A stretch of 64,000 nucleotides of DNA, taken from positions 108,498 through 172,497 of the forward strand of contig LSYV01000020.1 of the NCBI GenBank assembly GCA_001584585.1, written 5' to 3'. The stretch comes from Gonium pectorale. Its lineage: Eukaryota; Chlorophyta; Chlorophyceae; Chlamydomonadales; Volvocaceae. The position numbers and the translations under genes are program-made. The notes beneath the pieces are model-generated. The model was not told where the DNA came from. It made no database searches and saw nothing but the letters and a program-made list of their open reading frames with translations. Below are positions 1 to 32,000 of this stretch, one piece after another (the first letter of the stretch is position 1; each line of letters begins with the position of its first letter).

Positions 1-29
1 AAAGGGGAGGGGGGGGTGAGCGGCTCCCG

Positions 30-74
30 TCGCATGTCGCATGTCGCGTACATCGTACATCGTGCATCGTACAC
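30..74. repeat. Short GTACATC/CATGTCG tandem repeats
   Basis: Seven- to nine-base units (GCATGTC twice, then GTACATC-like units three to four times) sit near the window edge, in what is probably an intron of the Ala/Gln-repeat gene. No coding match was seen between 1 and 355 on either strand. Confidence 0.6.
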
Positions 75-324
75 GGGCGCGTTCGTAAACAGAGGAGGGA
101 GGCCGAACGGCGGTGGGGGCACACACATGACGAGGTGCATGGTACGCCCGGCTCGCTCGCTCGCTCGTGGGCGAGCGGACCGGCCGGCCGGCACAGCCAC
201 CTCGGGTGGATTGCCGTGCAGGTGGGCCCGGGGCGGGGCGGGGGCGCATTCCGCTGATGTCTTGACACCTCGCATAAAGCTCTGCACGCAGCTGGGTTCC
301 GGCAACACACGCGGATCGCACGCC

Positions 325-356
325 GACCCACCCACCCACCTACCCACCCACCCACC
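325..356. repeat. CCCA-type microsatellite at a splice donor
   Basis: A run of CCCA/CCTA units directly abuts the donor of exon 10 (minus-strand GTGGGTGGGTGG). It offers several alternative in-register GTGGGT donors. Confidence 0.7.
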
Positions 357-3300
357 TGGCTGTACGCCTGAGCGACGGCTTGCGCGGTGGCGGTGGCGGT
401 GGCGCCGCCCGCCTCCAGGCCGGTGGCGACGGCCTGCGCGGCGGCGTTGGCGGCTGCGGTGCCGGTGCCGTTGGCGGCGGCGGCGGCGATGGCCTGCGCG
501 GCGGCGTTGGCGGAGCCGCTGCTGATGGCTTGGGCGACGCCCTGTGGCAGGGAGGAGTGTGAAGGAGGGATTCACGAGGCTATCCACAAGCGGCTTGGGA
601 GGGTACTCAGGCGGGGTATGAACGTGAGTAATGAATTGTACAGCAGCCTGACAACCGCTCTTTCCTCACTGCTGCACACCCTTCACAGCGATCCTCGCTC
701 TGTTGCCCTGGCCCTGGCTCACTTCGCTCATCTTCTACAGCGCCCCTGCACCCGCGTCCCCACCCGTGCATGCCCCCACCCCTCGCATGCCCCCACCCAC
801 TTACACGCGCGCCTACCACCCACCTGTGCGACGGCCTGGCTGGCGCTGCCTCCCTGCGCGGCGGCCTGGGCCACAGTCTGCGGGGACATCAGCAGCAGCA
901 GGGGTGTCGGGGTTTCGGGGGCGTGAGCGAGGGTGGCGGTGCTTTCTCTCTGGAGTCATGCATCCATCACTAGCTCCACACCCCGCACGCCCGCCCGCAT
1001 GCTGTGTGAGCGCGTTTGCGTGCAGGCCTCAGGCCCCAGGCCGCAGGCGCCAGGCGCGCTCGCAGGTCCGCATGAGGAGCTGCGCATGCGCGCACCCGCC
1101 CCCGCGTACCCAGCACCCGCTTGACGGGTATGGGTCGATGGATGGATCGCATGGATTCAACGCGAGACGGGGTTTAGGTGCGCACCTGCGCTACGGCCTG
1201 GGCATTGCCGGACGACTGCGCCTGGGCGAGCGCCTGGGCGATGGCCTGAGCGGCAGTGCTGGGCGCTGAGAAAGTAGAAACCAGGGCGGGGGTGGGGAGG
1301 GGGAAAGGGTTCCAAGGGTTAGGCGATGTCGGCAGGGGACTCTTGGGACCAGGCGCCAGCGACAGCGCGCCCGACAAGGGCCGCACACCAAGTGACCCAC
1401 GGGTCTTGGCGCCTTCCAAAGGACAGCTGACCCTCCACTTCACCTCCCCCAGTGGGTCCCCAGTGGATCACCCTGCCAGTGTTTTGCAGGCCGAACGCAC
1501 GCAACCAGCTCCCACCCTCCTCCCGTCCGTCCGCACTCACAAGCAGCGGAGGCCTGCGACACGGCCTGCGCGACAGCCTGAGCGTTGGCGGCACCGCCCT
1601 GCGAGGACGCCTGGGCCAGCGCGTTGGCGGCGGCGTTGGCGTTGCCCGAGGCCACAGCGGAGGCGAAGGCGGAGGCGGAGGCGGAGGCGGACGAAGGTGC
1701 CGGACCCGGGGTGGGCGCAGGCGTGGCCTCAGGAGTACCTGCGACGGACAGGTATGGGGCCAGGGCGCGTGCGGCTTGTACGTACTTACGGTTTCTACGT
1801 ACCGTTTCTTCGTACGCGCGTGCGGCTTGTACGTTACGCACGTACGGTTTCTACGTACCGTTTCTTCGTACGGCTTCTACGTAGGTCGGTGCCATTCCTA
1901 CCGGACCACGGTTCAAGCCCCGATCTAGCGAACTTCCTGCCCGCGGGACATACGGCGCGGCAGTCCCAACGTCGCAGGCCGGGCGCTTACCCGCCGGGGT
2001 GGCTGTGGGCGCAGGCGTAGGGGCTGGAGTCGGTGCCGGTGTGGGCGCAGGAGTAGGAGCCGGGGTTGGGGCTGGAGTCGGTGCCGGTGTGGGCGCAGGA
2101 GTAGGAGCCGGGGTTGGGGCTGGAGTCGGCGCGGGCGTGGGCGCAGGTGTGGGCGCAGGGGTGGGCGCGGGCAGGCACTTGGACACGGCACCGGCCTGGG
2201 CGATGGACTGGGCAAAGGCGTTGCCGGATCCGGAGGCCTGCGCGTCGGCCTGGGCCTCTGCGGTGGGCAGCAGAGCAGGGGGCGGCGATGCGGGACGGGG
2301 GTCAACGGCGCTGTGATGCAAACACCCGTGTCAACAGAATGCGGGGTGGGGGTGGGGGGGGGGTGGGGGGGGAGTGGCGTGCACACCAGCCGGGTGGGCA
2401 CGAGTCGTCGACAGACCGGCTGCAGCGTACACAGATGCTCGGCAGCCATGCCTCGCTGTTAAGAGTGGTCACAGCGAAGCCACAGCGAAGCCCCGAGCCC
2501 TGAAGGAGCAACAAAGTCTCGCCCGAGTGCCCAAAACAGCTGCTGTGTGTGGCCGCATGCGTCTCCCTTCCCCTCCCCTCACCCCTCCCCTCACCCCTCC
2601 CCTCACCCCTCCCCTCACCCCTCCCCTCACCCCTCCCCTCACCCCTCCCCTCACCCCTCCCCTCACCCCTCCCCTCACCCCTCCCCTCACCCCTCCCCTC
2701 ACCCCTCCCCTCACCCCTCCCCTCCCCTCCCATGCACGTCCCCGGGCCCCATACAAGCCCGCCCAGTGGCTCAGTAGCCAGCAATGCAACGCAGCTGAGA
2801 ATCGCACTCACGGGCGAGGGCCTGGTCCAGCGGGCCGCAGCCGGACGCGACGGCTGTGGCGGCGGCCTGGCTGAAGGCCTCGGACTGGTTGCCGCCCGCT
2901 GCTGCCGCCTGGCTGAGCGCCTGCGCGGCGGCGGAGGCGTTGCCCTGCGACTCAGCGGTGGCCAGCGCCTGTGCCAGCACGTTGGCGACAGCGGTGCCGT
3001 TGCCCTGCGGTGACAATCGAGGAAGGGGGGTGGGCGGGGGGGGGGTAATTGGGGGCTACGAGGGTAGGTGGGGCGGCAGGGCGACGTGGGGAGTAGCCTT
3101 CCCTTATCTGTTCACGATCTTCTTGAAGAGACGCAGGTCGAAACGCGTGGCGGTGGGGAGTCGGCAATGTGGGAAGCAGGCCGGAGCGCCTCGCTTGGTT
3201 GGATGGCTGTACGCGGCCAAGCTGGTGGCAGTCAGCCAGCCCAGCCTCACATTCGTGCAAGGACCAAAGCTCCCAAAGCTTGTGGCTGGTACGGAAGCCA

Positions 3301-5053
3301 CAGTTTCGCGGGACTGGACATGCACTGCCGTACACCCCGATCCCGCACGTCACCATGCTGGACCCTGGCCTCCACCCCAAGCCAAGTGGGCAGTACCCCA
3401 CCCCACAAAGCGCCCTATGCCGCCCGAGCCGACGTGCCCGGACTCACCGTCTTGCGCACCACCACTGCAGGTCGTCCCAACGGATGCATGCAACCGACCC
3501 CTCCACCGCCCGCGTCCGTACCACTCACCTCGCCGTACGCCTGGGCTACAGCTTGAGAGACGGCCTGGGCGGTGGCGCCGCCGGTCGCGATGGCCTGGGC
3601 GATGGACTGGGCGGTGGCGACGGCGGTGGAGCCACCAGCGGCGGCGCCCTCGGCGATGGCGGCGGCGGCGCTGCCTGTGTTACCCTGCGGATGGGGGGCG
3701 GGGAGGGAGGGGCACAGCCGAGTGAGGGGCGCTTGTGCAAAGAGCGTGCTGTGCTTTTGCGCGCGCGGGAGAGGTGCGGACGGGCCAGGCTCGAGTGCGC
3801 AGCAGCGACGATCTGCCGGCCCTGCGCTGCTTCGCTTCGTTTCGCTTCGTTGGTGCACGCTCGGATCAGCCGGGCGGGAGGGCGGGCGGGCGGGAGGGAG
3901 GGAGGGATGCGGCTTGCGTGCCAAGCGACCTCCCGCATGACTATGCGGCCCTGGCTGATGCTCCGGAGGCCGAAGCCGCACCCGGTGCCCGCCTGCATGC
4001 GGAGTGCGAGCCAGCCCCTCCAGCCTTGCCCATCGACCTTGTCGACGCACGCTCCCAACCCCACACAGCAGTGCCTATAATACGGCCCCCACTCTCTTGG
4101 GTTCCCTCGCCAACGGCCCCTCACCTGGTTCACGGCCTGGGCAAGTGCCTGGGCGACGGCAGAGGCGGCGGCGTTACCCCCTTGCGCGACGGCCTGGGCG
4201 AGGGCCTGGGCGAGGGCGGACGAGGTGCCGTTGGCCTCGGCTTGCGCAAGGGCTTGGGCGATGGCCTGGGCGGTGGTGTTGGGCGCTGCAGAGGTGGCAC
4301 GGGGTGGGGGCGGCGGGCGGGGAAGGAGGGTAAGGCGCACGGGGGACTGAGAGCTTGATGGCGCCGAGAGGGCCGCCCGTTGTGTAGCGCAGCGGAAACA
4401 GCTCCCGTCAAATGACGGGCAAGGGCGATCGAATCAGAGTGTAAAAAAGCAGGGTGCAGGGCCTTGAACCCGACCGAGGTTGCGCCCGCGACCCACAGGT
4501 GGCGGCCGCTTGGGCGATGGCCGCGGCGGTAGCGTTGGCGCCGCCGGCACCGCTGGCGGACGAGCTGGCAATGGCCTGCGCAGCGGCGGAGGCGGAGCCG
4601 CTGCCGATGGCCGAGGAGATGGCCTGCGCGGACGCCGACGCGGACGCCGACGCCTGCTGCAGGGAGCGGCCTGCGGGGCGGGGGCGGGCGAGCGAGCGCG
4701 GTCGACGGGGCAAGGTTGATATTAATGGCCAAAGCGCTTCAGGAAGGGGCCCGCTGCGGTCAGCGGAGAGGCTGCGGCGCGGCATGCGACGCGCGCCGGC
4801 AGCGTCACGATCGTGTCAGCGGCCCGGGCACCCACAAGGCAAAACGAGGTCGCGGAATGGTCGCAAATCGGCATAAGGAACGAGCGACATTTGCGAGATC
4901 AGGCGGGAAGGCAGGTCAGCGCCGGCGATCGGCGGAGCGCGCCCCATTACGGAACCGAGCGGAACACGGCGGCGCGTCGCACCCACCCGAGGCGCTGAAG
5001 GCGGTCGCCAGCAGTGCTAGCGCCGCAAAGGCGAGGATCTTGGAGCTGCCCAT
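356..5053 (-). CDS. Secreted Ala/Gln-repeat (silk-like) protein, 3' end outside window
   Basis: I do not recognise this gene by name. Exons read 5053-4987, 4670-4497, 4285-4125, 3684-3529, 3004-2812, 2257-1991, 1738-1541, 1265-1186, 877-824 and 541-356 (512 codons). All junctions keep frame with GT-AG ends. The last exon ends at a GTGGGT donor, so the gene runs off the window. The start ATG opens a clear signal peptide ([20 protein letters not shown]), so the product should enter the secretory path. Every later exon carries units of the form AQAxAQAxxxG rich in Ala, Gln, Ser, Gly and Asn, with almost no charged or aromatic residues. N-glycosylation sequons recur (NAT, NTT, NGT, NAS). Exon 6 has one Cys followed by a long APTP tract like hydroxyproline-rich glycoproteins. 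I infer an extracellular-matrix, cell-wall or fibre protein. The exon chain is strong; the function is not known. Confidence 0.72.
1771..1875. repeat. ~51-bp tandem duplication with TACG/CGTA palindromes
   Basis: A block starting GCGGCTTGTACGT recurs 51 bases later, both times followed by CTACGTACCGTTTCTTCGTA. It lies in the intron between exons 6 and 7 of the Ala/Gln-repeat gene. The frequent CGTACG and TACGTA palindromes could form hairpins. Confidence 0.75.
2020..2171. repeat. Coding minisatellite (48-bp unit) encoding the APTP tract
   Basis: Two near-perfect 48-bp units start at 2020 and 2068, and a partial third starts at 2116. On the minus strand each unit encodes 16 residues, i.e. four APTP tetrapeptides. 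The tract lies in exon 6 of the Ala/Gln-repeat gene, and its length is always a whole number of tetrapeptides, so the frame is kept. Confidence 0.85.
2581..2724. repeat. 12-bp intronic minisatellite, 12 perfect copies
   Basis: The unit ACCCCTCCCCTC is repeated twelve times without a mismatch, with imperfect flanks. It lies in the 554-bp intron between exons 5 and 6 of the Ala/Gln-repeat gene. The strand asymmetry is strong (pyrimidine on plus, G-rich in the pre-mRNA). Confidence 0.95.
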
Positions 5054-8000
5054 GGTCGGGCGGCGGCGCGGCTTGCGGGAGGGGAGCGGCCGCAGCGGCT
5101 GCCGGGGTCGATCGCGGGAGAGTTGTCGGCCGACAGGCGCGGCGAAGACGAGGACGTGAGGAGCGGGAGGAGCACCCGCAATGCACAGTGACTAAAATGC
5201 ACGGTGCGAGATGGCGTCTGCGGCGAGAGCGGCCATCTTTAAGCCAGCCTTCCTGCGCCCAGTCGTACGGCTTTGGACTTTGGACTGTACGATTTGGCGG
5301 GTGCGCTGGCCGGAAGCTGGCGGCGGGGCCCTCGCGCCCTGGCACGTCCTCCGCGCGCTTAGGGCGCTGGGCGCTGGGGGCGGGCAAGACCCGCAGGCAT
5401 GACGCGCGGAGCGCATGCGCCCAGCGGAGTGCGAGCCCGCCGCCACCTGCCCGCGGATGCTGTGCGCGCCTGCCCGACGGCCCACGCACGAATGCACGTT
5501 TTCGTGCTTTGGTGCAGGCGCGGTCCCGGCCGATAGTCGCTCCTGGGACTCCCGGCTGCCAGATGGACGAAGGTCGCACCGGCGCTGATCACGCGCTGTG
5601 TCATCAACGCCCCCCCCCGTGCAAGGCTCGCTGATTGTTCTGCCACTGTTGCTATAGATATTCCCGGCGAGCGCATGAGAGCAATGCGCTCCGTTGGAGC
5701 AGCAGCGCGCTAGCCGAGTAGGCCGTCGCTTGCGTGCGGCCCACGGGTCAGTTCCTCAGCCGCGGCATCCTTTCGGCTGCGGCCAGTGCGCTTACTGCCA
5801 CTCGTTCTGGCAACATGGTTCCGGGGTGTTGATGGCGCTTTGCGCTCATGCAATGTTGTCAAAATCTCCGTCGCGGGGTGAGGATTGCTCGTCCGCTTTC
5901 GGCAATGCTCCACACGCTGAACGCATACACCAGGTGAAGCCAGCGCGGGGTGCGATGAACACGCAGCTAGGAATGGCACGGCCGCTGGCGGCCGCTCGAA
6001 CCGCGCGTCGGAGTAAGCAGGTTGAGGCGGGCATTTGGCCTAACCTGCCTAACGAACTTCGCGAGTGCCACAAGCATTTATACGTTAGGGGGCGCTACGA
6101 TAGGTCTTGCTGTTCGCTGCGCCGTATGCGCGGAAACACTAGTGGGGGCCATGCCCGTTCTGCAGGTTGTTGGCTTACAGGTTGCAGCTGGCTAGCTGGC
6201 TCGCTTCTTTTTGAAGGCGCACAAAGCCCGGAATCGTTTTAAGACTGTGGCAACCAAAAGAGTAATCAGAACCGCAGTGGTGTTGTAACGTTAGGTGCTG
6301 ACGGACTGCTCAGCGCACACACGCAGCACTGGCAAGGACCCCCAGATCGGCACCGCGCCCACAACCGCCCCAACCATGTGCGCTAATACAATGCTGGGGA
6401 GGGCATGCCGCTTGCCCCGCTCGCGCCCCGTGACAGAACTTGCCGCCTCCTGCTTTTTTTTCTGTGGAAAGGTTACAGGCGGAAAGGCGAGAAAGGGCGC
6501 AGACAGCGGGAGGGACATGCCGCCCTCCCTGCTGGCGGCGGCCAGGCGCGCTTCGTCTCACACGTAGGCGCCGGATCGTGCACGCATGCCGCATCGATTG
6601 AGCGGCACGCGTGGATGCGATCCCACGGCGGGACGGCTCATGAGCGCACATCCAGCAGCAGTTGCGGCCGAACAGCCCGATCCAGGGTCTGCACTTGCCG
6701 TGTCCATGGGCTAACAGGCTGCAGCCTCCTCAAGCCTGCAAGAGTCTCGCCCGGCACGCGCGCCGGAGCTGCCGCGGCTATGCAGGGACATCACCACGCC
6801 GCCTCAGCCGTCTAAAGCCCGAAGGTGCCCTGTCCCTGGGTTAAGAGTGCTTCGGACGGCAGGACAAGCATCGCCTGTCCCTGCGTGCCCGCGTTGAGCG
6901 ACTGGCATGGCGGCTTTACAAGGAAGCATCTGCTGATGGATGCGGCGGACCTGTGCGTGTCCGCACCCTGGGGGCACTTGCAGGAGCCTGGATCGGCTGG
7001 ATGACATGATATAATGCGCGTTTGTGGCAAACGCACAAACAAGCGGACGTTGCTCGAGGTGATAACGGTGAGTGCAGACGGAATGGGGTGGGGCGGTGCC
7101 GCGGGGGCCGCGTTGGGTCCCCCGTCAGCGCCATCTCACCCCTTCCAAGCTCCCGACTCGTGTACCCAACGTGCCGCACCTTCACCAACCTTTGCCCCCA
7201 CCCACCCATGCAATGGAGCATGGGTGAGACGTTGGAAGAGGATGAGGGGGGCGGCACCGCTAGCGCTAGGCCCTTTTTTGCTGCAATCGCGCTGGGGCGG
7301 GATGCGTGGCGTCAGTGACGTCTCGTGCCGGCTGCCGCGAGTATACATGCGCGGGGAGTGCCATGCAGGGAGCAGCTTCCACAGCACAGCTCAACGTCCT
7401 TGGGCGGTGTTCCAGAGGGCGCGCCATAACCGCTGGTTTTGAACGTCCCTGCGACGCGCCCTCCGAGCTGCTGCTGCCCTTTTGCCTTGTGGCTGCCCCT
7501 TCCACGCCCCTTTCCATGGTTCCTTTGGCACAGTTTCAAGTGCCGTACACTCCAGCTGCTCCAGCGCTTCACCCAGCACTCGCGCCCTCCATTTCCCGCA
7601 CCTCTATCAGCGCTCAGCCACTGGGGAGGGAGTGCTATAGCCGGCCTGCGCATGTTGGCCTGGCCTGGCTACACGCACACAGCCGCTGTGCGCTGTCCGT
7701 GACGGCCGATGCCCGGCTCCGCAATTTCGCCGACCCTGTACTGCCGCTGCGCGTCCTGAGTGCATGGGATGGGCGCACGTGTGTGCAGTCTAGTACCGGT
7801 AGCCGCTTATCTCCGAAGTACCGGTTAAGGTCTGAAGGAGCCAGCGACATTGGGAAGATGGGAACTGCGGCTCCCCCAACCTCCGGGAATTGCGGGGCCC
7901 CTTCGGACGGAAGGGCCGCCAGCTCCCTTGCATTGCCCACCTTGCCTGCTACCGTCCACCCCGACTGGCAACGCTGCACCTTCGGCTGTGTTAGTCCCTA

Positions 8001-16767: not shown

Positions 16768-19700
16768 CTACTGGTCAATGTTGAGCACCAGTGCCACGCC
16801 CTGCAGCACCCAGTGGCTCGAGTGCTCCGCGCTTGCCAGGTCGGCGTCAAACACCAGCCCCACGCCCATGGCGTTGCGCCGCGCCTGCGTCACGTATACG
16901 GGCGCTCGGAAGGTGTTTGCGAGCTTGAGCTTGTTGGCCTCGATGGGTATGAGCTGCAGGATGGGCAGCTCCGTGACCAGCACCTTGGGGTCCTGCTTGC
17001 GCAGCTGGCCCTCCTCCAGGTCCCAGGCCGCGCCCTCCAGGTACAGGCCAGTCATGAAGCAGCCGTACTTTGGCCGCTCCGTGACCTGGTAGGGGTCAGT
17101 GTACTTGGTGACCTTGGTGTACAGCGTGCTCTTGTCCAGCGGCCAGCCCTTGTCGCGGCAGGCCGCCTGCACCAGCGCCGCGATGTAGGTCTCGGGGATG
17201 TGCAGCCCGGACAGCCAGATGACCTTGGGCTCGCCGTGCTCGGCCCACTCCTTGTACTGCCGATAGCGCCGCCCGAACCACAGCATCCACGCGCCCAGCG
17301 CCTTCTCGGTGGCGGGGTTGAGCCGCGCCCACATGGCGGGCAGCTTGCCGTTGAAGAGGCTGGACGCCAGCTCCTCCAGCCGGCTGCTGAAGCCGATCTC
17401 GCCAATGAGCGCGCGCTGCAGGTCCCGCAGGCTGGACACCATGACCGCCAGCACGCCGTTCCAGCGCTCCAGCTCCTGCAGCAGCACCACCTGCGTTGGG
17501 CTGGGGCTGCCCAGCTCCTTGCGCAACTGCGGCAGGTCGAAGGGCTCGGGGATCTTGGCGCTGATGTCGCGCGCCACGCCAGCGATGAACTCCTCGCGCC
17601 CCACGCCCGCTCCGCCGCCGCCAGTGCGCGGCTGCAGGTCCACCAGGTCGGCCCAGATGGCCTTGGTGGCCGAGGTGTAGTAGCTGATGTCCGCGTTGGC
17701 GTGCAGCCCAAACGCCTCGGGACTCTGCAATGAGGGTGGAAGCGGCGAGTGCGGTCATCGTCGAGAGGCAGGTTTAGGGTTGAGAGCCTAGGTGCTTCGG
17801 TGAGCCTGCTGCTGAACTTGACACGAGTGTGCCCCTTTCACCCGTTCCCTACGCAACACCCACGCTGGCAGCGTCCCCGCCGCACCTGCACGAGTGGCAG
17901 CGCTTCGATGGCCTTGAGGTAAACGTCTCGCGGGCCGCTCTGTGGGATGGAAATGGTGTAGTCCTTGCAGGCGTAGAAATGGAAGGGCTGGAAGGTGTCG
18001 AACAGGAAGTCGCCCAGGTACTCGTCCAGGTAGGTGGTCAGGATGCGGCGATCGTAGCTGTCCGATACACGGCCGCCGTACATGGCCTCGCCAATGAGGT
18101 AGCGCAGCGTGCCCCAGGGGATCAGGTCGTCTTGCGCGTCCCAGGCCTTGGTCAGGTAGGTGGAGATGAGCGCCATGGAGATGCGGAAGTCCGTCTCATT
18201 GAAATCGTACGGCACATTCCAGCCCAGCTTGCCGTACTTGCGCCGCTCCTGCACGACGGCGTGGAAAAAGGCCAGCACGTACACCAGCGGCCGGAATGCG
18301 CCGTGTGGGCAGTCGGCCAGCACCTCCTCGGTGATCTTGGAGTAGCTCTGCCGCATGTTGAGCTTGAGGCCGTTGGGCGGCTCCGTCACCACCTTGAGCG
18401 AGCGCTGCAGTACGCCCAGCGGGAAGCGGTCGGTGGGCTCGGTGGTGAGCCACAGCCGGAAGTCGTGGTGCGGTTTGGTGATCTTCTCCAGGATCTTCTC
18501 CAGCGTCTTGAGCCAGGTGGGCAGCAGGTGGCAGTTCTGCAGCATGATCCATAGGCCACGCGTGGCGCCCGTCTCAATGAGCTCCTGCGCCTTGGGGCCC
18601 ATGCCCTGGCCCAGAGCCATGTACTTGAGCTTGGCACCGGGCCTGAGCAGAGGGAAGTGAAGGCACGGGCCAGCGGGAGGCAGGTGAGCAACGACCCCAA
18701 CGACAATAGGTTAAGGCGTGCCAGACACCCGTTACGTACTTGGCCCTTTGCAGACTGCCCCAGCTGTGCAGCTCATCCGTCATTCGGGAATGTCTGAGAT
18801 AAATCGAATCAGCGTCTGTGTTCACGCAGGCAAGGACACCCGGGACGCAGCAGGGCCGCACCTGAAGCCCATTTCCTCGCCCAGCTTGAACACGTCAAAG
18901 GCGGGGTCGGCGCCGGGCGACAGCACAAACACGATGGGCGTGGTCTCGGAGCTCTGCTTGTAGATTGCGCGGTACTCGAGCACGGGCGGCTGCACGTACT
19001 TCTCGCCCATGATGCCAATCACGAAGCGCGTGATGCCCACCGTCACGCGGTCCATGCGCAGGCAGCGCAGCAGGCACAGCTTCTCAAAGTCGGTTAGGAA
19101 GGTGTGGTAGCCCATGGGCAGCTCGGCCTCCTCGGGGGCCTCCAGGTCGTAATAGGCGCGCCACGCGGCCTCGTCCGACTCCACATCGTTGGCCAGACTG
19201 TGTGCGGGGGGTGGGGGGTGGGGGGCAAGCGCGAGACCATGAAGCATGCGCAAGGAGCCTCTGTCCTTTCGCGTTCCAGTCAAATGCAGGGTCCTTACCG
19301 GCATCCGCCCTGCAGCCTGGATTGACATGTCTCATAAGCCCGATCCCTTCCCCAGTCCCCAGGTGCCGCCCGCACCTGGCCAGCGCGTGCATGCGACCGT
19401 CCGGGCCGGTCTTCTTCTGGCCCAGCTCCACGAGCCGCATGAGGTCCTGCCAGCCCGCGTCGGGGAACCACTCGAACGGCTTGCGCCGCGCCGCCTTCTC
19501 CAGAGACAGATTGCCCTTGAGGAAAAAGTCGAGCAGCTGCGCGTCTAGCGGCGAGTCGCCCTCCAGGATCTTGGCTGTCATCTGGAACGAGAACATCAGC
19601 TTGTGCCGCTCAAACAGGCCGAGGCACGTGTAGGCGTACACGTCGTAGGTGAGAGTGTCAATGATGTTGCGCAGTCGGCCCTCGATGGACGTGTCGCGTC

Positions 19701-22700
19701 GGCTGTTGTGCAGCGAGCCGTTGAAGACCACGAGGAAGGACGCCAGGCTGTACTCGTACATGTTTGTGATGGCGGACAGGCCCGCGATCACGAAGAACAG
19801 GATGGCGCCGCGCTTGGCGGCAGGGCTGTAGCGTACACGCGTCTCCTCGATCTCCGCAGCCGTCACCTGTGCACACGACAGCAGGGGCAAAAGGCAAGGC
19901 ATTACGAGCGGCCCGTGGGCAGCCCACATGCTTTCGATGTGCGCGATACTTAACGGCATCTTTCTGTCCCAGTCGGCTGCGATTGGTGCAATCCGATAAT
20001 CCCGCCGCCCCATCTTCAATGCGTTGCCCTTTGGTGCCCTACCCACCTTCGACGCCTCGAGCTTCTCGGCGATTTCCACTGCCTTGAGCTTGGCGCTCTC
20101 CAGCGTGGCGATCAGCTCGCTGTTGTCCAGGATGTTGCCCTGCGCGTTGGACAGCTCGCGCAGCAGCGTGTCCTCCAGCGACTGCAACGTAGCCTTGTTC
20201 TCGCTCATCTGCTTGATCAGCGCCTCGCGCGCCTCCTCCAGGTCGGGCCGCTCGTGGCGCAGAGTCACGTTGAGCAGCTGCTCCGTCAGGCCCTGTGTGT
20301 GGGTGGAGGCGCAGCGACAGGGAGCGGGAGCCAAGACAAGAGTTGACGTGCTGGGACCGAATTAGGTGCACTGGGACACAAGAGAAGTTGTTAGGACGAG
20401 GAAGGAAGGATTGGTGTAGACTTTCTATATCGTTTCTGCGTGCAAAGCATCCGCTCGTAGTTCGTACCTGCTGCGTAACTCCGTAGTTGATAATCATGGT
20501 CTTGCCACTGATCTCCGGTCCGTAGTGTGGATTGGACAGCTTGGAGGTCATGTAGAGGCGGAAGTTGTTGTCCCACTCCACCTCTTTGTCGCCCAGCTTA
20601 ATTACCGCCTTGCCGGTGCTGCCTGCGGGCGACAGATGCGCACATGGGTTCAGTGCTGTGCCGGCTGGCGTTCGAGGTGGCAACTGTCAGGCACAGAACG
20701 GCCAAGGGGCATCACAAGGGCCACCAGCACACCACACTGGGGCTGCTTCCATAAAACACGGTACGTGCTCCCACCCGGCGGGCACCTCTCCCTCCCTCCC
20801 TGGGTGGGTACTCACCCGGCACCAGGTTCTTCTCCAGCACCGGGTCGATGACTGGGTCAATGTACTCGTCCAGGTTCTCAAACAGGAACGGAAAGCCGTA
20901 CTGGATCGCCAGCTCCAGCTGCTTGAGGAAGTCGCTGTCGTTGAAGGTCTTGACTTTGCCCTCAAGCATCTTGCCCTCGCGGCTCTTGATCCAGTTCACG
21001 GCTTGCATCTGGTGGCGACAGCAGAGGCGCACATGCGCCGCATGTGATCTCGCACTGTCTTGCCTGCATTGCCTCTTAGCGGCTGCCTAAATCGCATTCC
21101 AGTTTTGCCTATGCTCGTTAAGGAACTTAATTCCGATTGTAACGCCCAGCCATTCAGAGAAAGGTGCGCCACCCCAGCTGATACATCCCTCCCTCGCCGC
21201 ACCTGCGGGTCGATGCAGAGCGGCCAGCGGTTGGCGCGCACGGTGAGAATGCCGTTCTGGATGCTCAGCTCGTCGCCGGGCAGGCCCTCGCTGGCCCAGG
21301 CTGTCGTCTCCACGTCGCTCGTCAGCAGCGCCTCCAGGCGGAACGGCTGCGTCAGCGGCACGCCGCGCTCGCGCACGTCGTCCTGCCACATGTCGTACAC
21401 CATGGCGTGGCGGTAGGTGGCGGTGAAGGCGCCGGTGTAGGAGAGGAAGGAGCTGGTGAGCAGGCAGTCGCCGATGAGGCGGTCGCGCCGCGCCTCCAGG
21501 TCCGCAATGTCGCGCGTCCATCGCTCGCGCTCCGAGCCCAGGCCAGCAATGAGCTTCGAGGCGGCGATGAGGCGGCGCTCCATAAGGTCTGCCTTTGTCT
21601 TGAGGTCCTGCTGCTCCGCGGTCTTCTCCTCGAACTGCTGACGCAGCTGGCTGAGCTGCGCATTGAGCGACTGCACCTCGGCCTTGGTGTTGGCCAGGTC
21701 CTTCTGCGCGATGCGCAGGTTGCGCTCGCTCTCCGCCACCTTCTTGCGCTTGGGCTCCACCGTGCGCGCCACGTTGTTGTAGTTGACCATGGCAAGCACC
21801 CACTTCAGCAGGCCCGCGCCGGCGATCGAGATGTTCTGTGGGGCGCAGAAGCAATGCCTTTTGCAGAAGCATGGTGGGACTCGGGATGGGGGCCGGGCGG
21901 GACAATGCAAAGGCTCCAACTGCAACAAGCATGCCGAGACGGTGGGGTTTGCCTGCCGGCTCTCCCACTGACGCCGAACTGAGCCACTTTTGCCCACCTT
22001 GAGGTTCTCAAAGTTGAAGTTCTTGTCTTTGAGGTAGTCCTTGACGCGTCGGACCTGCTTGTCGGTGAGGCTGTCCTTGTCGAAGTCCAGCAACGAGCGC
22101 AGGAAGTTGCCGTCGGCCATCATGGCCTTGGCGCCCGCCCAAGATACATCTTTGAGGTTGCGCAGGATCACCACACACTCGCACACCTGCAAGCAGGCTC
22201 GGGAAGGGCAGCATTGTGAAGATTTGAGGCAAAGAGCGGCCTGTGCAGCAGGCACAAGGGCTGTAGCGCTTAGACAAGGGCTGGGATGCGTCCGGGCGGA
22301 GACTTTAAGCCTGCGGCTTTGTGGCTCTTGCGCCGTATCACGCGCCATATGCGTCACCATCCACCCCGAGGCGCACAGGCAGCGGGAGGTCCTCGGTTTG
22401 CTCTGGTGCCGTACCTTCTGCACCATGTCGTGCGGCTTGGCGAACGAGCGGATCTCAGTGATGTGGTCCTTGGACAGGTCCTGCAGCGCCGCCGCAGCCT
22501 CCTCCAGCGCAGGGATGGCCTCCTCCAGAGCCGCCTCCGCCTCCGCCTTCTCCACTGTGATCTGCTCTGCGTCGATCTTGAGCTGCGCCTCCTTGACACC
22601 GGCCGCCTTGGCCTTGGCCTCCACCTCCACCGTGTTGGTGCTGATCACCTGAGGCGCGACGCAGGCAAGGGCAACCGATGTGGCATGTGTGATTTAATGG

Positions 22701-23063
22701 CACTTACGGCATACGCGGAGAAAGGCTGAGAACTCGTTGGCATAGTCACATGGTTGGGTACTACCGGTAAGCTCGCTGGCACCTTGGTTGCTTGCTGAAG
22801 CCCGACTCCCACCTCTCCCTACTAACCTCGAGCAGCTCGTTGCACTCCTTGGTTGCCTTCTCCACCACCACCTTTGCCTGGCTGAGTTCCTTCTGCATGG
22901 CGTCCACCTCCACCGCCGCCTGGATCAGCTTCTCCAGGCCGCCCGACAGGCGGCTGACTGTGTCCTGAATGGTGCGCCGGTTGGTGGCCAGTGCGCGCTT
23001 GTAGTTGTTGATGAAGTCCAGGTAGTTCTTGGGCGTCACGTAGTTGTAGCGCCTCAGCTCCTC
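16768..23063 (-). other. Dynein stalk, AAA5, AAA6 and C-terminus: exons 42-52
   Basis: Exons: 23063-22827, 22648-22415, 22186-21998, 21835-21203, 21008-20816, 20622-20468, 20292-20047, 19866-19376, 19197-18862, 18642-17886 and 17724-16768 (residues 3175-4650). Two Ala/Glu/Lys-rich coiled-coil arms (exons 42-43 and 45) flank the microtubule-binding tip (exons 43-44, [20 protein letters not shown]). AAA5 contains [20 protein letters not shown] and AAA6 [20 protein letters not shown]. The last two exons give the C-terminal cap with [14 protein letters not shown]. Confidence 0.88.
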
Positions 23064-26000
23064 CTGCAAGGCACGCATGAGCGCACATCGCATCCTTGAG
23101 CACACAAATTCAATAGCAGCACTCAACAGTCACTGAAGGAGCAGGACAAGACACAAACTCCGTGACCCGGAAGATATTGGGAGGTCCGTGCCTTCTCGCG
23201 TCACCCCAGTTGCTACCGCACTGTGCGGTTGTGCGGTTGGCAGCCACAGCCCACCAGCCGCCAACTGTCCCTCAACCGCGCGCACCAGGAAGCGCGTCGA
23301 GAAGGTCCGCACGCTCTGGTGCACCAGCACCATGTGCTCCACGATCTGCGGCCGCAGCGTCTCGGGCAGCGCTTCATCCGCCAGGAACACAGAGGCCACG
23401 CTGGTGAGCGCCTGCTCGGGCCAGGGCTCGAACCAGTCGATGACGGTGTTGTTGACCATGCCCGGGAAGTTGCGGCAGCGCGAGCGGAGCGACTCGCCGA
23501 CGGGGCTCATGGCCAGCACCACGTGCAGGTTGTTGCGGCACTTCTCCACGTAGTAGGACCAGCAAGACTCCTTGGTCGCCAGCATGCCCCTCTTCTCCAC
23601 CTGCAGGGTTTGGGCCATTGCGGCGCCAGGTGCTGAGACGTCTAGCAGATAGTACAAGCAAGCGCGCATTAAGCCCAAGCCGGTCGTCTGTGTCCCAAGT
23701 GTTTGCCGAGAAGAGAGGGCGGCGTTCCATAGAGCATAACACGTGATGCGGTTACTCTGAAACCGCCGGATACAGCTGCCGTCCCCTTATGAGTAAGCTA
23801 GTAGTGCCGACGCACCTCGCCGCGCACGGCGCTGATGAGTCCGTCCTTCTCTGATCCGTCGTACAGCGCGGGCACCATGCCGCTGGTGAGCATGTTGTTG
23901 ATAAGCTCCAGGAAGCCCTCGTCCGCCACGTGCGCGTCCGTGAACAGGAACATGACGCGCTTGTTGTCTGCACCTAGCATGCCGTACAGTCGCTTCAGGT
24001 CCTCGCGGAAGGCCGCCTCGTCGTAGCCGCGAGTCAGCGTGATCTCAAACACCTCGCAGCCCGCAGTGAAGGCCGCCAGCCGAGACAGGCTCTGCTTGCC
24101 GCTGCCGCCCACGCCAACCAGCAGGCAGTTGCCCTGCAACGAACAGGAACGACAAGCGGCACGGCATCATCACAGGTCCACGACGCTGTGCAGCTGTCGA
24201 CGAGTCAGGATCAGGCTGGTTCACACGCTGCCTTCTGCTGCGGGTTGCAGAAAAGTTCGGCTGAATCCCACAGACCCGCCCACGGATTTCCCAGCCCCAC
24301 GAACCTGCGGCAGCCGCAGCGTGCGGTGGATGCGGGTGAGGTGCTCCAGCGCGTCCTCAAAGAACACCAGGTTGAGCGGCTTGCGCTTGCGGTTGTAGAT
24401 GGCCATGATCTCCTCAAACAGCGGCTTGATGGCGGCGTAGTCGCCCAGGTCGTCGTACATGCGGGGAGTCACCTCACCTTCGCCAAGCAGCTCGTTCACG
24501 GCGTGCCTGCGGGGAACAACCAAGGCGCCGCAGCCGCAGTCCAGTGAGGGGACGATCAGGGGGGCAAGCGGGTTGCATCGCAAGCCGTTGGCGGCTTGAG
24601 CTCTATGCATGCGGCAGGTAGGTCCGGGCCGCCCATGGTACCTACTTGAAGTCGCCGAACAGCACGGGCGAGGTGAGCGTGTGCGCCGCCAGGTTGGGGA
24701 ACTTCTGCTGCACCAGCGCCTCCATGCGCTCCACCACTAGCCGCTTGTCCTCGGTGCTGATCAAGCGGTCGTGCAGCACGCGAAGCGACTCGTTGCGCCA
24801 CAGGCGCAGGAACTGCTCTGCCGTCTTGAAGCAGTCGCCTGAGGGCGGGAAGGCATGGCAGCGCTCAGAGCCGTGGGCAACGCAAGCGCATAGCATGCGC
24901 CTGCGCTAAAGACAGGTGCCGAACCCATGTCGACAGCCTTGATAAATTATCCTTCGGCCTTCTTACCCACGGACAGCAGCAGTCCCTCGTAGATGCGGGA
25001 CAGGTCGCGCAGGTTAAAGATGTAGTGGAAACGCGAAGGCGTGGGCGGCAAGCGGTCGATGATGAAGTTGTACAGCTCCAGTGTCACGTCCGTCAGCCGC
25101 TCGCCCAGCTGGTCACGGATCTCGTCTGAGGGCAGCTTGGCCAGGTGGCGGCTCAGGATGGCCTGAGGAGAGGCGGGATTGGAGCAGCTGGGTCAGGCGG
25201 CTCCAGTGCCGGTTCGATTGCCCGCTGTTGACATGCATGCAGATAACTGTCCACCTGGGCTTGCGAGTACCGGCCGTCTGCGCCACGGGCGAGGCAGCAC
25301 GCACCAACCTGTACACCGGGCGCCGCCAGCCCTTTGGCCCCACGCTTACCTGGTAGATGGTGCGTAGGTTCTCATTGCTGGGGAACTGAATCTCAAACAC
25401 GCTGAACAGGGACACGAAGCGCGGATCCACCGGGTTTCGTGCGCCGCCGGGCGGTCCCATGGCCGCCACCACCTGCACGTCCTTCATGTTCTTCCAGCTC
25501 AGCTCCTTGCCGCGGTCGTACAGCCCGCGCCGCTCAATAAACATCTTCAGCAACGCGATGGGCTGCTGCGTGCCGTACGTGTCCACGCGCGGCATGTTGA
25601 GGTCGTCAATGAACATCAGCAGCCGCTTGCCCATGGGCGGACCGTACGTGTCCTGGTGGCGTGGGACAGGGCAGCAGATGGAGAAGGTCACCCACACATC
25701 AAAAGTAGGACCGGAACCGCGGTGTCCATGAACTGAGATTGGATTGCAGTTTGAGCACGGCTCGCTCTGCCCGCACCCTTCAGCCCACACCGCACTGCCC
25801 CTTGCTTGCCCACCTTGGTCCGCTTCTCGGTCGAGTCCTCGATGGCGCGCTGCACGTCCAGCGAGGAGGTGCGGCTGGAGAAGTTGACGTTGAGCACAAT
25901 GTTGATGGAGCCGTCCAGATGCGCCAGGTAGTTGGCGATGGTGACGCTCTTGGCAGTTCCGCTCTCACCCACGAACAGGCAGGGCTTGCCGGAGGACACT

Positions 26001-29000
26001 ACCGTGTTGAGCAGCCAGGTGGACCTGCGAGGGGGGGCGGTGGCAGCGGATGAGTGTTGCAAGGTAAGCATGCCTGCCCTTAGGGGCCAAGGGCCGTGTT
26101 CGCCAGTGCATCTGGGACAGCGACTACGGTGGGACCACCACCTCATCAGCAAACACATTCAGCCAGGATAAGATGGACCCGCCAAGCTGTAGGTGTATGC
26201 GCCCACCTGACCACGTCCACGGTGGGAACCAGGATCTTGCTAAACGCGCCGTCAGCGGGCGGCTCGTAGGGCTGCAAGTAGGAGCGCCAGCTCTTCCACA
26301 CGCCCTCGTTGGTGTCGAAGCAGTACTCGTACAGCGAGCGAGCGGGCAGCTGCGTGGCGGCCACGCGCTCGCCGTCCACCAGGCCCATGGAGGCGATGTG
26401 CTTCAGGAAGGCGTCGAAGCGGTCGCGGTCCGGGCAGTCGGGGCGCTGGACCAGCGCGGCGCCTGGGGCACACGCACGGATAGATGCAGGTGTGAGAGGC
26501 AGCGTATTGCCCAGCGTGAAAGGCAGCGTATTGCCGAGCGTACAAAGCTTAAGTCAAGCGATTCTGGATGCAGGCAGCGTTTCACCTGCGCCGCCTGCGG
26601 ACCATCCTTTTGGCCCGCACACACACTAGGCAGCGTGCGCTTACCCAGAGACCAGATGGTGCAGAAGATGAAGATGGCCTCCAGGATCTGCGGGTCGCTC
26701 ATGCGCGGGTGGTCGGTGATGACGGTGTTGAGCAGGTTGCACAGCTGCGCCACCATGTTGAGCGACGTCACCGGCACAGCCTGCTTGGGCCGCCGGACCA
26801 GGTCGTCGCCATCAATGCCCTGCGGGAGCGGAAGCGGGAAGCGTGCCGGTTTGAGATCACAGGTGCTGTCGCTCGGCATAAGCATTTCTAGCTTCGACAT
26901 GGCCCGGCCGTCCGAAACGTTTCCCATACCAGCTAGGAGGAACAACGCCTGGCCCCACCGGCACGTGTTCGCCAGCCTCCGCTCCTTACCTCGAGCACCC
27001 AGTCGACGGCGGGCACCGCGTACTTCTCAAACAGGCCGCGCAGGATGTCCACCTCGCCCTGCTTGGAGCGCGCGTTGAGCCAGGTGTAGATGTACGGCTT
27101 GTAGCCCAGGTTGCGGCTGTCCACGTACACCATACCGCACCTAGGGGGGATTTGCGCAGGATTGAAACCTATCAATGCCTGATACTGAGCACAGCGCACA
27201 TAACATTACGAGGCAGCTCCTTCCATACATTCCACTCCCTGTGTGCGTGTCCTTGGCCACCCGCAAGTGCCGGCCTGCCGCCCGCAGAAAGATGAAGCGT
27301 TCATCCTTGGGCCTGCGCGCTCACCGACTGATGGTGGCGGGCGAGGCGAACTGCAGGTCAAACACCTCGAACAGCAACTTGCAGTGGTTCTGCAGGCGGA
27401 TGCGTTCGCCGTTGGGCAGCGTAAGCAGCTTGTTGTCGTCCATGACCGAGTTCATGTTCTCCACCCACACGGCGTCCACATCGCCATCAAACACCAGGTA
27501 GCGCGCCTCGTCGCGCTCGGGCGGCAGCGGCTTGTTCATCTCTCTGCGGGACGGGCATCCCGTGACAAGCCAGTTAGCTGACGTCACGCGCACGAACACG
27601 CAGTATGCAGGCCGCAGGCACATTCCGACACTCAAGTTCCATGAAATATGCCGCAGTTGCAGGGGCTACCGTTCCTGCCCCAACACGAGACGCAAGAAAG
27701 CGCCGTAGCCTGCACGGGCCTACGGCTTGATTCTCGTCAGCCCCCCTCAGCCGCACACCTGAAGATGTTTGAGAGTAGGCCGTCCGTCCAGTCGCGCGTG
27801 TCCTTGTCCAGCACGCCGTACAGCTCTGAAACAGAGATGGCCTTGGGGTTGATTGTGTACAGGTGCGTCTTCTTGCCCAGCTTGGTCTGGGCGCGCGCCA
27901 GCGTGTTGAGGATGACGGTCTTGCCGCCGCCCGTCTGGCCAACCACCATGGTGGTGTGTCGCGTCATCATTACCTCGTACAGCTGCACGATCTTGTCCAC
28001 CTGCTCGCTGGGCTCGATGAGCACCTTGTAGCCCTGATCGGCCAAGTCCGCCTCCACCACATCGTTGAATTGAGGGTAGCGCACACGCGGGCAGTCCATG
28101 CCTGCAAAAGCGGGACAGGAAAGGGGCACGGGGTACACGTATATAGCAGTGTAAGGAGAAAAGGCTGTCCGGCACTACCGAAAACCGTGGTCGCGGCTAG
28201 ACAAGGCCACCGTTCCGTAAGACGCCGGGCTGGTATGTGGGCTCACCTGGAAAGAGGTCGTTAATAAGGCCGAGGAAGAGCGGCACGTCGTCGAAGATGA
28301 ACTTGGGCAGGTTCATGTCGCGCAGGGCGCGCATGAGCACCAGCTGCTCCGACATGTCGGGTGCGCCGCGCTTGAGGCTGCCCGCCATGACCAGCACCGA
28401 CTTGAGCGCGCGCAGGCCGAAGTCGTAGTGGTGCTGCTTGGACAGCTGCTCGCGCGACAGCTTGTACAGCACCGTCATCTTCTTGGCCAGCACCTTGGCG
28501 CTGTCGAAGCCCTCCGAGAAAAGCATGATCTCGCAGATTTGCTCCAGGTCCGGCACCACCATGGTCACTGGACGGAACAACGCCTGCAGGGGAGGGAAGG
28601 GAACGAGCGTCGCAAGGAAGTACACGCACATAACTACTATGTAGGAACATGGCACCAGGACAAACCCAGCCCACGGGGTTGCAACGCTCGCGTTCGAGCA
28701 GGGCGGCATCCCATAGGGCCCTGCGGACCTTGAGGTTGTCGGGCAGCTCGGTGCGCCCGGCATAGCCAGGATTCATGGTGATGAAGATGCCTGTGCGCGG
28801 GTCGATGTTGATCTCCTTGCCCTCGAACTGGAAGCGCGTCAGGTCGTTCTTCAGCGCCTCCTGGATCTGTTTGATCTGGCTAGACACCACCGACAGCACC
28901 TCCGCCTCAATCCGATTGAACTCGTCAAAACAGCCCCACGCGCCGCACTGCACCAGGCCGCTGAAGATAGAGCCCATAGCCTGCGGGCGGTTAAGGTTGC

Positions 29001-32000
29001 GGGCAAGAACCCAGACAGGGGAAGGTTATCTCTGGCCCCCAGCACGGCGGCGCGTTAGTCCCATGACCGCGTGAAGGTACTACGTTAAGCTACTATATGG
29101 CCGGGTTGTGGTGTGAGAGGCAAGGGGAGACACGACACAATAGCGGTATCGAAACCGATTGCGGCTTTGCTAGTTAATCTGGCCCGATGACGGCATTCCA
29201 TACCCTTTCCCTCGCACCTTGTAGTCCAGGCCCTCGCCGCAGTTGAACACGACACACAGCAGCGCCATGGACTTGGCCAGATCCTTCGTGGTCTCCGTCT
29301 TGCCTATGGCACGCCGAGTACAAGCATACGGTACAGCGGTTCAGCCATGAAGCCGCTAGCGTGCATAGCAACCCGCAGGAGAGTCTTCGGATGATGAAAA
29401 CATCTAACCTCTCCTCCCCAATCTTGCTTCAGGCAGTCCCACGCACCCGTGCCCGCGGGGCCTGCCGGGGCGCCTCCCAAGCGGTATGTGAGCGCGGTGG
29501 TCAGCGTCATGTAGCAGCGGTCCGTGAGCGCCGTGATGACCAGGCGGCCGTTGAGGCCCATGTACTCGTAGCCGTACTTGAACAAGCCTGGAAAAATGCA
29601 TAAACACACGTTGGAAAGGGCGAGCTGCCTGCACCCGCATGTGGTGAGAGACACCAGAACCCGCCGCCCCCGGCTCCAAAGGCCCTGCGCACCCGTGCAC
29701 TGGCGGATGAGGATGTCGTCCTGCTGGCGGTCCCAATAGAAGCGCAGCTGGCTCTCCCATGCGAACTCGCGCGCGTCCACAATCGAGTCGCGCACGTAGG
29801 TATCAATGATGTCGCGCGCGTGCACGTCGATGATGATGAGCGTGTTGACCTTCTTGCGCACCTCGTTGCTCAGGTCGCTGCGAACCTGTGGGAGGCATGC
29901 GAGCAAGCGGGGGACCCTGAGCCTGTGGGCGGTTGGAAGTGCGTGACAAGCGCTGCGGCATCGCACGTTGACAGCTTCCGAAGTAGTTCCCGGGATGGTT
30001 TCAGCGCTGTTAGACTCTCTGGTGGTAGTTCTGAAAGGGAATGTTTTGCAGCAGCCGTGGGACTGCCTGAGCCAGCTGCCGTTTGGTGTTAGATTGATCC
30101 CACCCGCTCTCCGTGCCAACATCGCCTACCATGCTGGTCAGCTCCGAGAGCTGGCCCGTGAGCTTGGCCGCAAACTCCTTCATGGCGTGCTTGTTGCCAT
30201 CGCGCACGCGACGGAAGACGTCTTCTGTCTCCCAGGTCCACCAGATCTGGCTGCCCACCAGCGTCACCATGCCCAGGTTCTCGCTGATCCACTTGGTGCG
30301 GGGCGACTTGGCGTAGTAGAATATGCCCTCCTTGGTAATCTGCGGGCACACGCTCCGCCAGTTTGATGACCTGTTTACTTCCATGCAGAGAGACGGGCCA
30401 GAGGCGCGCAGCGGCAGGGGACAGGCCAATGGGGCACAAGGAAGCGGGGAAGGGCTATCGACCGGGGCCACACTGCTGCCGCACGCACCTGGTAGAGCGT
30501 CTTGCGCATCTCCGCCTCCACGTTGGTCATCCACATCTCCACCGCGCCCTCGATGGGCACCACGTTGCGGAACTCGAAGCCCTCCTTCTCGCTGCTGACC
30601 ATACCGGTGATGGTCTTGTTGCCGCGGCCAAACACCAATGACGCGCAGTTGTCGAAGAGCTTGAGCATGTGCTCCTGCGCGGTCCCATGAGGATGGAAGT
30701 GTATTGGACCAAGCGCTACGGTCTCTGCTAGCCACTGGGGTGCTGCCCGACGGCATGACAGGTCCTGTTGAGCTGTCTAGTGCTGCCGCCTCCGCCGCCG
30801 CAGCCGCTACGCCCAGTGCCCTGGCCAAGCAACAGCCCGCCCGCACCTGCACGCTGGTAGGGTCGGACGTGCCGAGGATGGACAGAAGCTCATCGTCCGA
30901 GATGAAGAAGAAGCGCGGGAAGGCGCACCGCTTGGTGTCCAGGTACTCGGACAGGCTCTTCTGGCAGATCTCCAGCTGCTCCGACAGGCTCTTGAGCAGG
31001 TCCAGCCGCCCGTCTGCCGTGCAGGCGTCCAGTACCACCGTGTTCTTGGCCGTATCGTTCATGGTCTTCTGCCACTGCCGGTCGATGTTGTCGAAGCGCT
31101 TTGCTTCAGCTGGCAGCTGGTGGCGGATGTCGTCGGACCCCACAAAGATGGACTCGAGGTACATCCATTTGCGCTGGACGTGCATCCACACCTCAATGCA
31201 CTCGCCGATGAGCGACAGCTTCTGCTCCCAGGCGCGGACCTCCGTGAGGAAGGGCCGCACGAAGGGCGAGGCCATCATGGACTGCAGGTTGAGGCCCATG
31301 TCCTCCAGCAGCACCAGGATGTCCTCCGTGGAGCGAAGCACCCAGCCGCGGTCCTCGGGGCCCTTCATGTACTTGCCCAGCTCGAAGCGCTGCTCGCGCC
31401 AGACGTCGGCGAGCTTCTTGATCTCCGACTCAATCTACAGGTCCACGGCGGGAGAGGGCTTGTAACGGCACAGGCAGCGAGCATCAGCAGGGGCAACCTC
31501 CCAACAATGGGGGGGCATCCATGCGTGTGAAAGGTGGCAACAGAGCCGTTGATAGCTACGGGAAAGTGCGCTTGTTGGCACAGGGGGCAAGGCACTCTGC
31601 GCCGGCGTCCTCACCGTGAGCTCCTTGACCGCGGCGTTGGTGATCTTGCCAATCTCCTCAGCGTATTTGTGCAGCTGCATGGAGAACATGTTGCCCAGAG
31701 TGAAGGTCTTGGGGTCCATGTCGAACTCCTGGCCCGTAACCTCCATAAGCCGAGTCCAGTGGCGCTTTCTGCGGTGGGTGCCATGGAAGTTGAGGGTGGT
31801 TGGGGCACTAGGTTATGGCGCTGGTGTCTTAACCCGCTACATGCCTGCAAGGGAGACACCGCGTCGTAGCACGATTTGCGCGGTTCCAACGCCGCCGCCC
31901 ACGTGAGGGTCCGCACCTGAGCGCCTCGCTCTTGAGCTCCTTCATGAGCGGCAGCGAATTGTGGAAGCCCTGTATCTCTTTCTCCACCAGCTCGTACACG

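Follow-up and report, generated by a model that had tools for sequence, protein, structure and literature searches.

A probable secreted helical-repeat protein, rich in alanine and glutamine and with a proline tract, in Gonium pectorale, and its relatives in other green algae

What kind of protein is encoded at the left end of a 64,000-nucleotide stretch of the Gonium pectorale genome (the window; contig LSYV01000020.1, here C20, positions 108498-172497)? Volvocine algae serve as a standard model for how multicellularity arose, and their extracellular matrix has been described mainly via pherophorins and hydroxyproline-rich proteins. A preliminary description, made from the letters alone, had seen in minus-strand exons at the left end a secreted polymer of AQAxAQA modules, likened to silk or helical adhesive polymers and to wall glycoproteins. 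The locus is a real gene. It probably encodes a secreted member of an unnamed helical-repeat family, made almost purely of small residues and glutamine and joined to proline rods such as are common in algal walls. If this is true, a separate secreted, non-proline helical-repeat family, also present in other green algae, would be a missing structural class of the matrix, and its fold would be an unusual natural solenoid built almost wholly from Ala, Ser, Gln, Gly and Thr.

The three minus-strand frames of window positions 1-5200 were read and exons were joined by hand. Ten minus-strand exons, from 5053 down to 356, join to 1536 nucleotides, or 512 codons without a stop, at the same coordinates as had been reached independently before. 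GT...AG borders all nine introns (9/9) of this hand-spliced model, which range from 211 to 554 bases. In the joined exons, GC content reaches 0.84 at third codon positions (GC3), compared with 0.72 at first and 0.73 at second positions; across the first 6 kb of the window GC is 69-70%. As exon 10 ends at a splice donor (355), the gene continues outside the window, in sequence that reads as N (16,498 of the 16,498 contig bases inspected to the left, C20:92000-108497). The features of the gene, from its 5' end, are:

4987..5053, minus strand: exon 1, with a signal-peptide-like start and phase 1 exit, from hand splicing and the N-terminal hydropathy maximum
4497..4670, minus strand: exon 2, a Ser/Ala-rich lead and the first units, with sequon NAT
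4125..4285, minus strand: exon 3, first solenoid, ending AVNQ; its 5' junction falls between two modelled helices of the Monoraphidium relative P0001
3529..3684, minus strand: exon 4, a further part of the first solenoid, ending AYGE
2812..3004, minus strand: exon 5, a further part of the first solenoid, with the first Cys of a hairpin (C242 at 2839-2837)
1991..2257, minus strand: exon 6, the other part of the Cys hairpin, with C278 at 2177-2175, and after it the TPAP tract
2007..2168, minus strand: proline tract (residues 281-334), with AP and TP alternating over 54 residues; a likely extended rod and target of O-glycosylation
1541..1738, minus strand: exon 7, remainder of the proline linker and beginning of the second solenoid
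1186..1265, minus strand: exon 8, second solenoid
824..877, minus strand: exon 9, second solenoid
356..541, minus strand: exon 10, second solenoid, with the donor at 355

Intron 5 contains a ten-base minisatellite of the cccctcaccc type (window 2570-2730, read by eye).

The best relative of the window protein is P0001, hypothetical protein J3K34DRAFT_489259 of Monoraphidium minutum. It is collinear with residues 34 to 279 of the window protein, where 127 of 244 aligned pairs are identical (52%), and the alignment crosses four exon junctions (after residues 80, 134, 186 and 250), with a gap of one residue at the third of these. Across one junction, AVNQ/GNTG of the window protein pairs with SVNQ/GNTG of P0001. 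Scores were compared with those of three kinds of shuffle (of all residues, of all but Ala, and inside nine-residue blocks), 200 of each and 600 per relative. The first half gave 92.4 bits against P0001, with a shuffle maximum of 25.4 (28.1 in a rerun with other random draws), and the second half gave 48.5 bits against a maximum of 25.8 in 600 shuffles. It is clear that the locus is a gene rather than a set of chance frames, since the spliced first half is collinear with the Monoraphidium protein at a score far above the shuffles.

One protein search gave 96 matches, of which 13 were read; many of the other 83 are assumed to arise via the TPAP tract. The first half was clearly above all shuffles for 10 of the 12 relatives tested. 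P0029 from Scenedesmus was marginal (29.3 bits, shuffle maximum 26.6), and P0019 from Haematococcus was not accepted as homologous to the first solenoid (17.3 bits, under its shuffle maximum of 24.3). Further relatives come from Chlamydomonas sp. UWO241 (FOA52_001225 and FOA52_011091; P0002 and P0099) and from EukProt transcript proteins (P0003, P0097, P0098, P0100, P0101 and P0102). These six have additional Cys-rich parts at the N-terminus, and their C-terminus, too, is rich in Cys, ending in four of the six in a nearly identical LYVYNDIGNRxCKC-like motif. No other volvocine protein was found in three protein searches (candidate lengths 281-896, 481-1529 and 961-3059 residues), which scored about 8000 candidates each, may have left out near-genome records and are thus uninformative on absence. 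On viral contigs, 181 stretches fitted a pattern and none was a relative.

The window protein, counted on a 513-codon version of the chain, is 37% A, 11% S, 10% Q, 8% G, 8% T and 7% P. Its richness in AQAxAQA, as described before, is genuine: AQA occurs 32 times (mean 7.1 and maximum 17 in 500 shuffles) and AQA.AQA nine times (maximum 2). Nevertheless, the repeat unit is best read as a helix plus turn of ~18 residues rather than as AQAxAQA. Turn motifs, by a pattern picked after inspecting the sequence, return about every 18 residues in the first half (residues 81, 99, 116, 135, 151, 169, 187, 207, 223, 241 and 260), with further motifs at 45, 65 and 138 and, in the second half, at 371-495. 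The top autocorrelation lags of the first half are 4, 18, 2, 16 and 53; 71 is also present, and 35/36 weakly. Alternation of Ala at period 2 is very strong.

C242 and C278 are the only Cys in the 512 residues. The stretch between them is of equal length in the window protein and P0003, and 11 consecutive residues of it are identical in both. Cys pairs 31-42 residues apart lie in the Ala-rich stretches of P0001, P0002, P0004 and P0029, and comparable pairs are found in P0097, P0098 and P0100-P0102; P0019 has no such pair in its Ala-rich part. The window protein shows the layout of the P0001-type family, in which Ala-rich units repeat about every 18 residues and a two-Cys hairpin of ~37 residues comes after them.

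The Monoraphidium relative is modelled as stacked helices. In the AlphaFold2 model of P0001, helices are mostly 14-18 residues long from residue 90 onward, and the block predicted local distance difference test (pLDDT) score is 79-90 for residues 91-310 and 72-75 for 311-330. The model of P0097 is helical across residues 401-770, with block pLDDT of 56-81 except at 511-530. A PDB sequence search with the first 278 residues of the window protein gave as its top match a designed 35-residue helical-repeat toroid, at a weak E of 0.019. Armadillo/HEAT-type and designed helical-repeat proteins, whose stacked short helices resemble those modelled for the relative, were prominent in fold comparisons. 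None was significant by Foldseek, which gave no significant match at all, and no family was clearly ahead of others in the VIA comparison. Armadillo/HEAT-type and designed helical-repeat proteins are intracellular or man-made and contain far less Ala and Gln. The window protein is better read as built of an ~18-residue helix-and-turn unit, with a relative modelled as a helical stack and a two-Cys cap, than as a silk-like AQAxAQA polymer.

Related genes are present in the same genome (128.9 Mb in 352 contigs searched). Of five matches with P0001 as query, three were pieces of the window gene and two lay at C8:985-986 kb. With the second half of the window protein there were eight at E ≤ 0.1: its own gene accounted for six pieces, and C34 (822.6 kb) and C8 for one match each. 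A query of 145 residues from the first half matched only the window gene, in three places, and P0101 gave no match. The C34 gene (G000:C34:821078-825541) looks complete, with a signal-like start, Ala/Gln exons, a Cys cap, a Pro/Ala-rich tail and a stop. Its joined protein gave 45.1 bits against P0001 (shuffle maximum 23.9) and 30.8 bits against the window second half (shuffle maximum 25.0). Its cap reads SGCGAISNVLA/AAQ...AAATCL and, as in the window gene, is interrupted by a phase 1 intron in the ninth codon past the first Cys. If the C34 splice holds, this match of intron position and phase is good evidence of common descent; the splice was made by hand, and its donor at the cap (GTGTGT) is not of the commonest kind. 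A C8 exon gave 30.4 bits against P0001 (shuffle maximum 21.6). It belongs to a region (G000:C8:981569-992609) with an apparent tandem pair, that is, at least two adjacent Ala-rich genes with ATA-type domains like those of UWO241 P0099. Two CC...CNC ends with stops lie at C8. One shares an open frame with an ATA-type domain exon; the other, which matches the P0099 tail (E 1.2e-4), follows a long TPAP tract and sits in a frame of its own, so that it is presumed to be spliced to the gene.

The view that the protein is not pherophorin-like and belongs to no family that could be named has held. A Pfam scan of the 512 residues gave no family at E ≤ 1, and hence no PF12499 pherophorin domain and no Armadillo, HEAT or TPR repeat profile; no silk fibroin or spidroin family was matched either. 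The genome does have pherophorin domains (54 exon-level matches to PF12499); their absence from 14 control genomes says little, because those genomes are prokaryotes as far as they are named. Six of seven relatives scanned had no Pfam match at E ≤ 0.05, and the seventh had only HECT, in an apparently fused gene model; three of the six EukProt relatives were scanned and likewise had none at that threshold. NCBIfam matches (SslE and two others) were far under their cut-offs and were rejected. No published description of such a protein was found in a literature coverage that excludes most subscription papers. The protein is not unique, having homologs in other chlorophytes and in EukProt transcriptomes and related genes in its own genome.

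The relatives differ in what is joined to the Ala-rich domains. P0001, itself uncharacterised, resembles the window protein in its units, Cys hairpin and hydrophobic N-terminus, but has no TPAP rod and instead has a Cys-rich tail directly after the cap. The UWO241 proteins share the Ala-rich domains. P0002 also has the Cys hairpin, and P0099, which is ATA-rich rather than AQA-rich, has Pro/Ser linkers and ends in a CC tail; both appear fused in gene models to unrelated domains (PF00454, HECT). EukProt P0003, P0097, P0098 and P0100-P0102 share their Ala-rich units and their two-Cys caps with the window protein. With pherophorins and the volvocine hydroxyproline-rich wall glycoproteins, the window protein has in common a signal-like start and a proline rod; hydroxylation and O-glycosylation of its proline tract are predicted.

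A secretory route is indicated by the hydrophobic start, by sequons in turn segments and by the 54-residue AP/TP tract. Exon 1 encodes a putative signal peptide, as had been proposed, with an N-terminal Kyte-Doolittle maximum of 1.65 and no more than 1.04 in later windows of 19. The sequons described before are present; there are seven, six of them N-terminal of the proline tract. Their excess is mild, since 2.8% of 5000 body shuffles, which average 3.3, reach seven. The proline tract lies in mid-chain, as described. Only three Lys/Arg occur in the 512 residues, at 5, 24 and 277. In algae and plants, Pro tracts of this alternating kind undergo hydroxylation and O-glycosylation.

The favoured reading, which is judged reasonably probable, is a secreted modular glycoprotein composed of an alpha-solenoid, a disulfide cap, a proline rod and a second solenoid; most likely it would serve as a wall or matrix scaffold or spacer. 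The signal peptide would send the chain into secretion, and Ala/Gln-rich helices with Gly/Asn turns, repeating about every 18 residues, would pack as an alpha-solenoid. Its final two helices would form a hairpin shut by a C242-C278 disulfide. A stiff alternating (Ala/Thr)-Pro rod would follow and bear the second solenoid. The solenoids may supply binding or packing surfaces in the wall or matrix, and the rod, which like those of other algal wall proteins probably carries hydroxylation and O-glycosylation, may supply spacing and hydration. On this reading, the extracellular-matrix role suggested in the preliminary description would apply.

In a solid-state nuclear magnetic resonance (ssNMR) study of the Chlamydomonas reinhardtii wall, Ala (13%), Gln and Glu (9% each) are the most abundant residues, hydroxyproline is low and low-weight glycoproteins are left unassigned (PMC10837150). 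This composition would fit a wall role of Ala/Gln proteins, and is suggestive only. It is distinctly unlikely that an old family of such extracellular alpha-solenoids, rich in Ala/Gln and borne on proline rods, makes up a substantial share of chlorophyte wall protein and helps to explain why Ala, Gln/Glu, Gly and Asn/Asp, rather than hydroxyproline, predominate in a C. reinhardtii wall extract. Several observations weigh against a helical, capped wall protein of this kind. The same ssNMR study describes strands and coil in the wall and reports no cysteine there (PMC10837150), which argues against a large helical, disulfide-capped share. In the window protein itself, hydrophobic residues have a near-equal peak at 180 degrees beside that at 85-95 degrees, and the 28.5 bits of the C34 protein against the window first half are exceeded by one kind of shuffle (30.4).

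Some of these points would suit a silk-like or beta-sheet low-complexity fibre, in which the A-x-A-x alternation stacks as beta strands and forms fibres or mucilage. The period-2 alternation of Ala, the peak at 180 degrees and a composition similar to that of silks are all as expected of it, as are the strands and coil that ssNMR shows in a related wall (PMC10837150). However, the turns every ~18 residues, the hydrophobic peak at 85-95 degrees, the helical model of a homolog and the conserved Cys hairpin do not suit such a fibre, and relatives of higher complexity retain Ala-rich units and caps. The fibre is ranked below the helical solenoid because of the homolog model and the turn spacing; it is unlikely, and is retained as a rival since the periodicity leaves strands possible. 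By analogy, the Ala-rich and Pro-rich layout might instead be that of an adhesin or recognition protein, with a stalk presenting binding sites in gamete or cell-cell contact. A member of the streptococcal antigen I/II family is reported to have alanine-rich and proline-rich regions (PMC3178794). This is improbable; no adhesin family was matched by Pfam at E ≤ 1, and the 3' end, with any C-terminal anchor, lies outside the 512 residues.

Type I antifreeze proteins have an 11-residue Thr/Ala repeat in a long helix, and UWO241, the source of P0002 and P0099, is an Antarctic alga. An ice-binding or stress protein of this Ala-rich helical kind would account for the Ala-rich helices and for those two relatives, yet 11 is not among the 14 best autocorrelation lags of either half (peaks 4, 2, 16 and 18), the ~18-residue repeat has Gly/Asn turns and the best relative is from Monoraphidium; the explanation is very improbable. 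Least credible, and extremely improbable, are chance open frames or a decayed gene, for which GC-rich DNA and low complexity provide a ready source: nine of nine GT-AG junctions are in frame, GC3 is high, homology spans the junctions and shuffles fall short of the observed scores. The helical solenoid on a proline rod remains the preferred reading.

Elsewhere in the window, 7 of 10 open frames scanned have dynein heavy chain domains (DHC_N1 to Dynein_C); these seven lie on the minus strand at 16771-36561 and are probably one axonemal dynein gene. Its last frame aligns without gaps to chain 8glv_Cn over 321 residues (677 bits; next chain 426 bits), 8glv being a structure from Chlamydomonas reinhardtii. 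Open frames at 47567-49102 and 62117-62683 have a SAPS domain and lactate/malate dehydrogenase domains, respectively, and 55312-56499 encodes a carboxyltransferase domain with an acetyl-CoA carboxylase zinc finger (nuclear accD-like). An Rfam tRNA match at 36966-37061 (58.9 bits) has no ARAGORN call, and its length of 96 bases suggests an intron.

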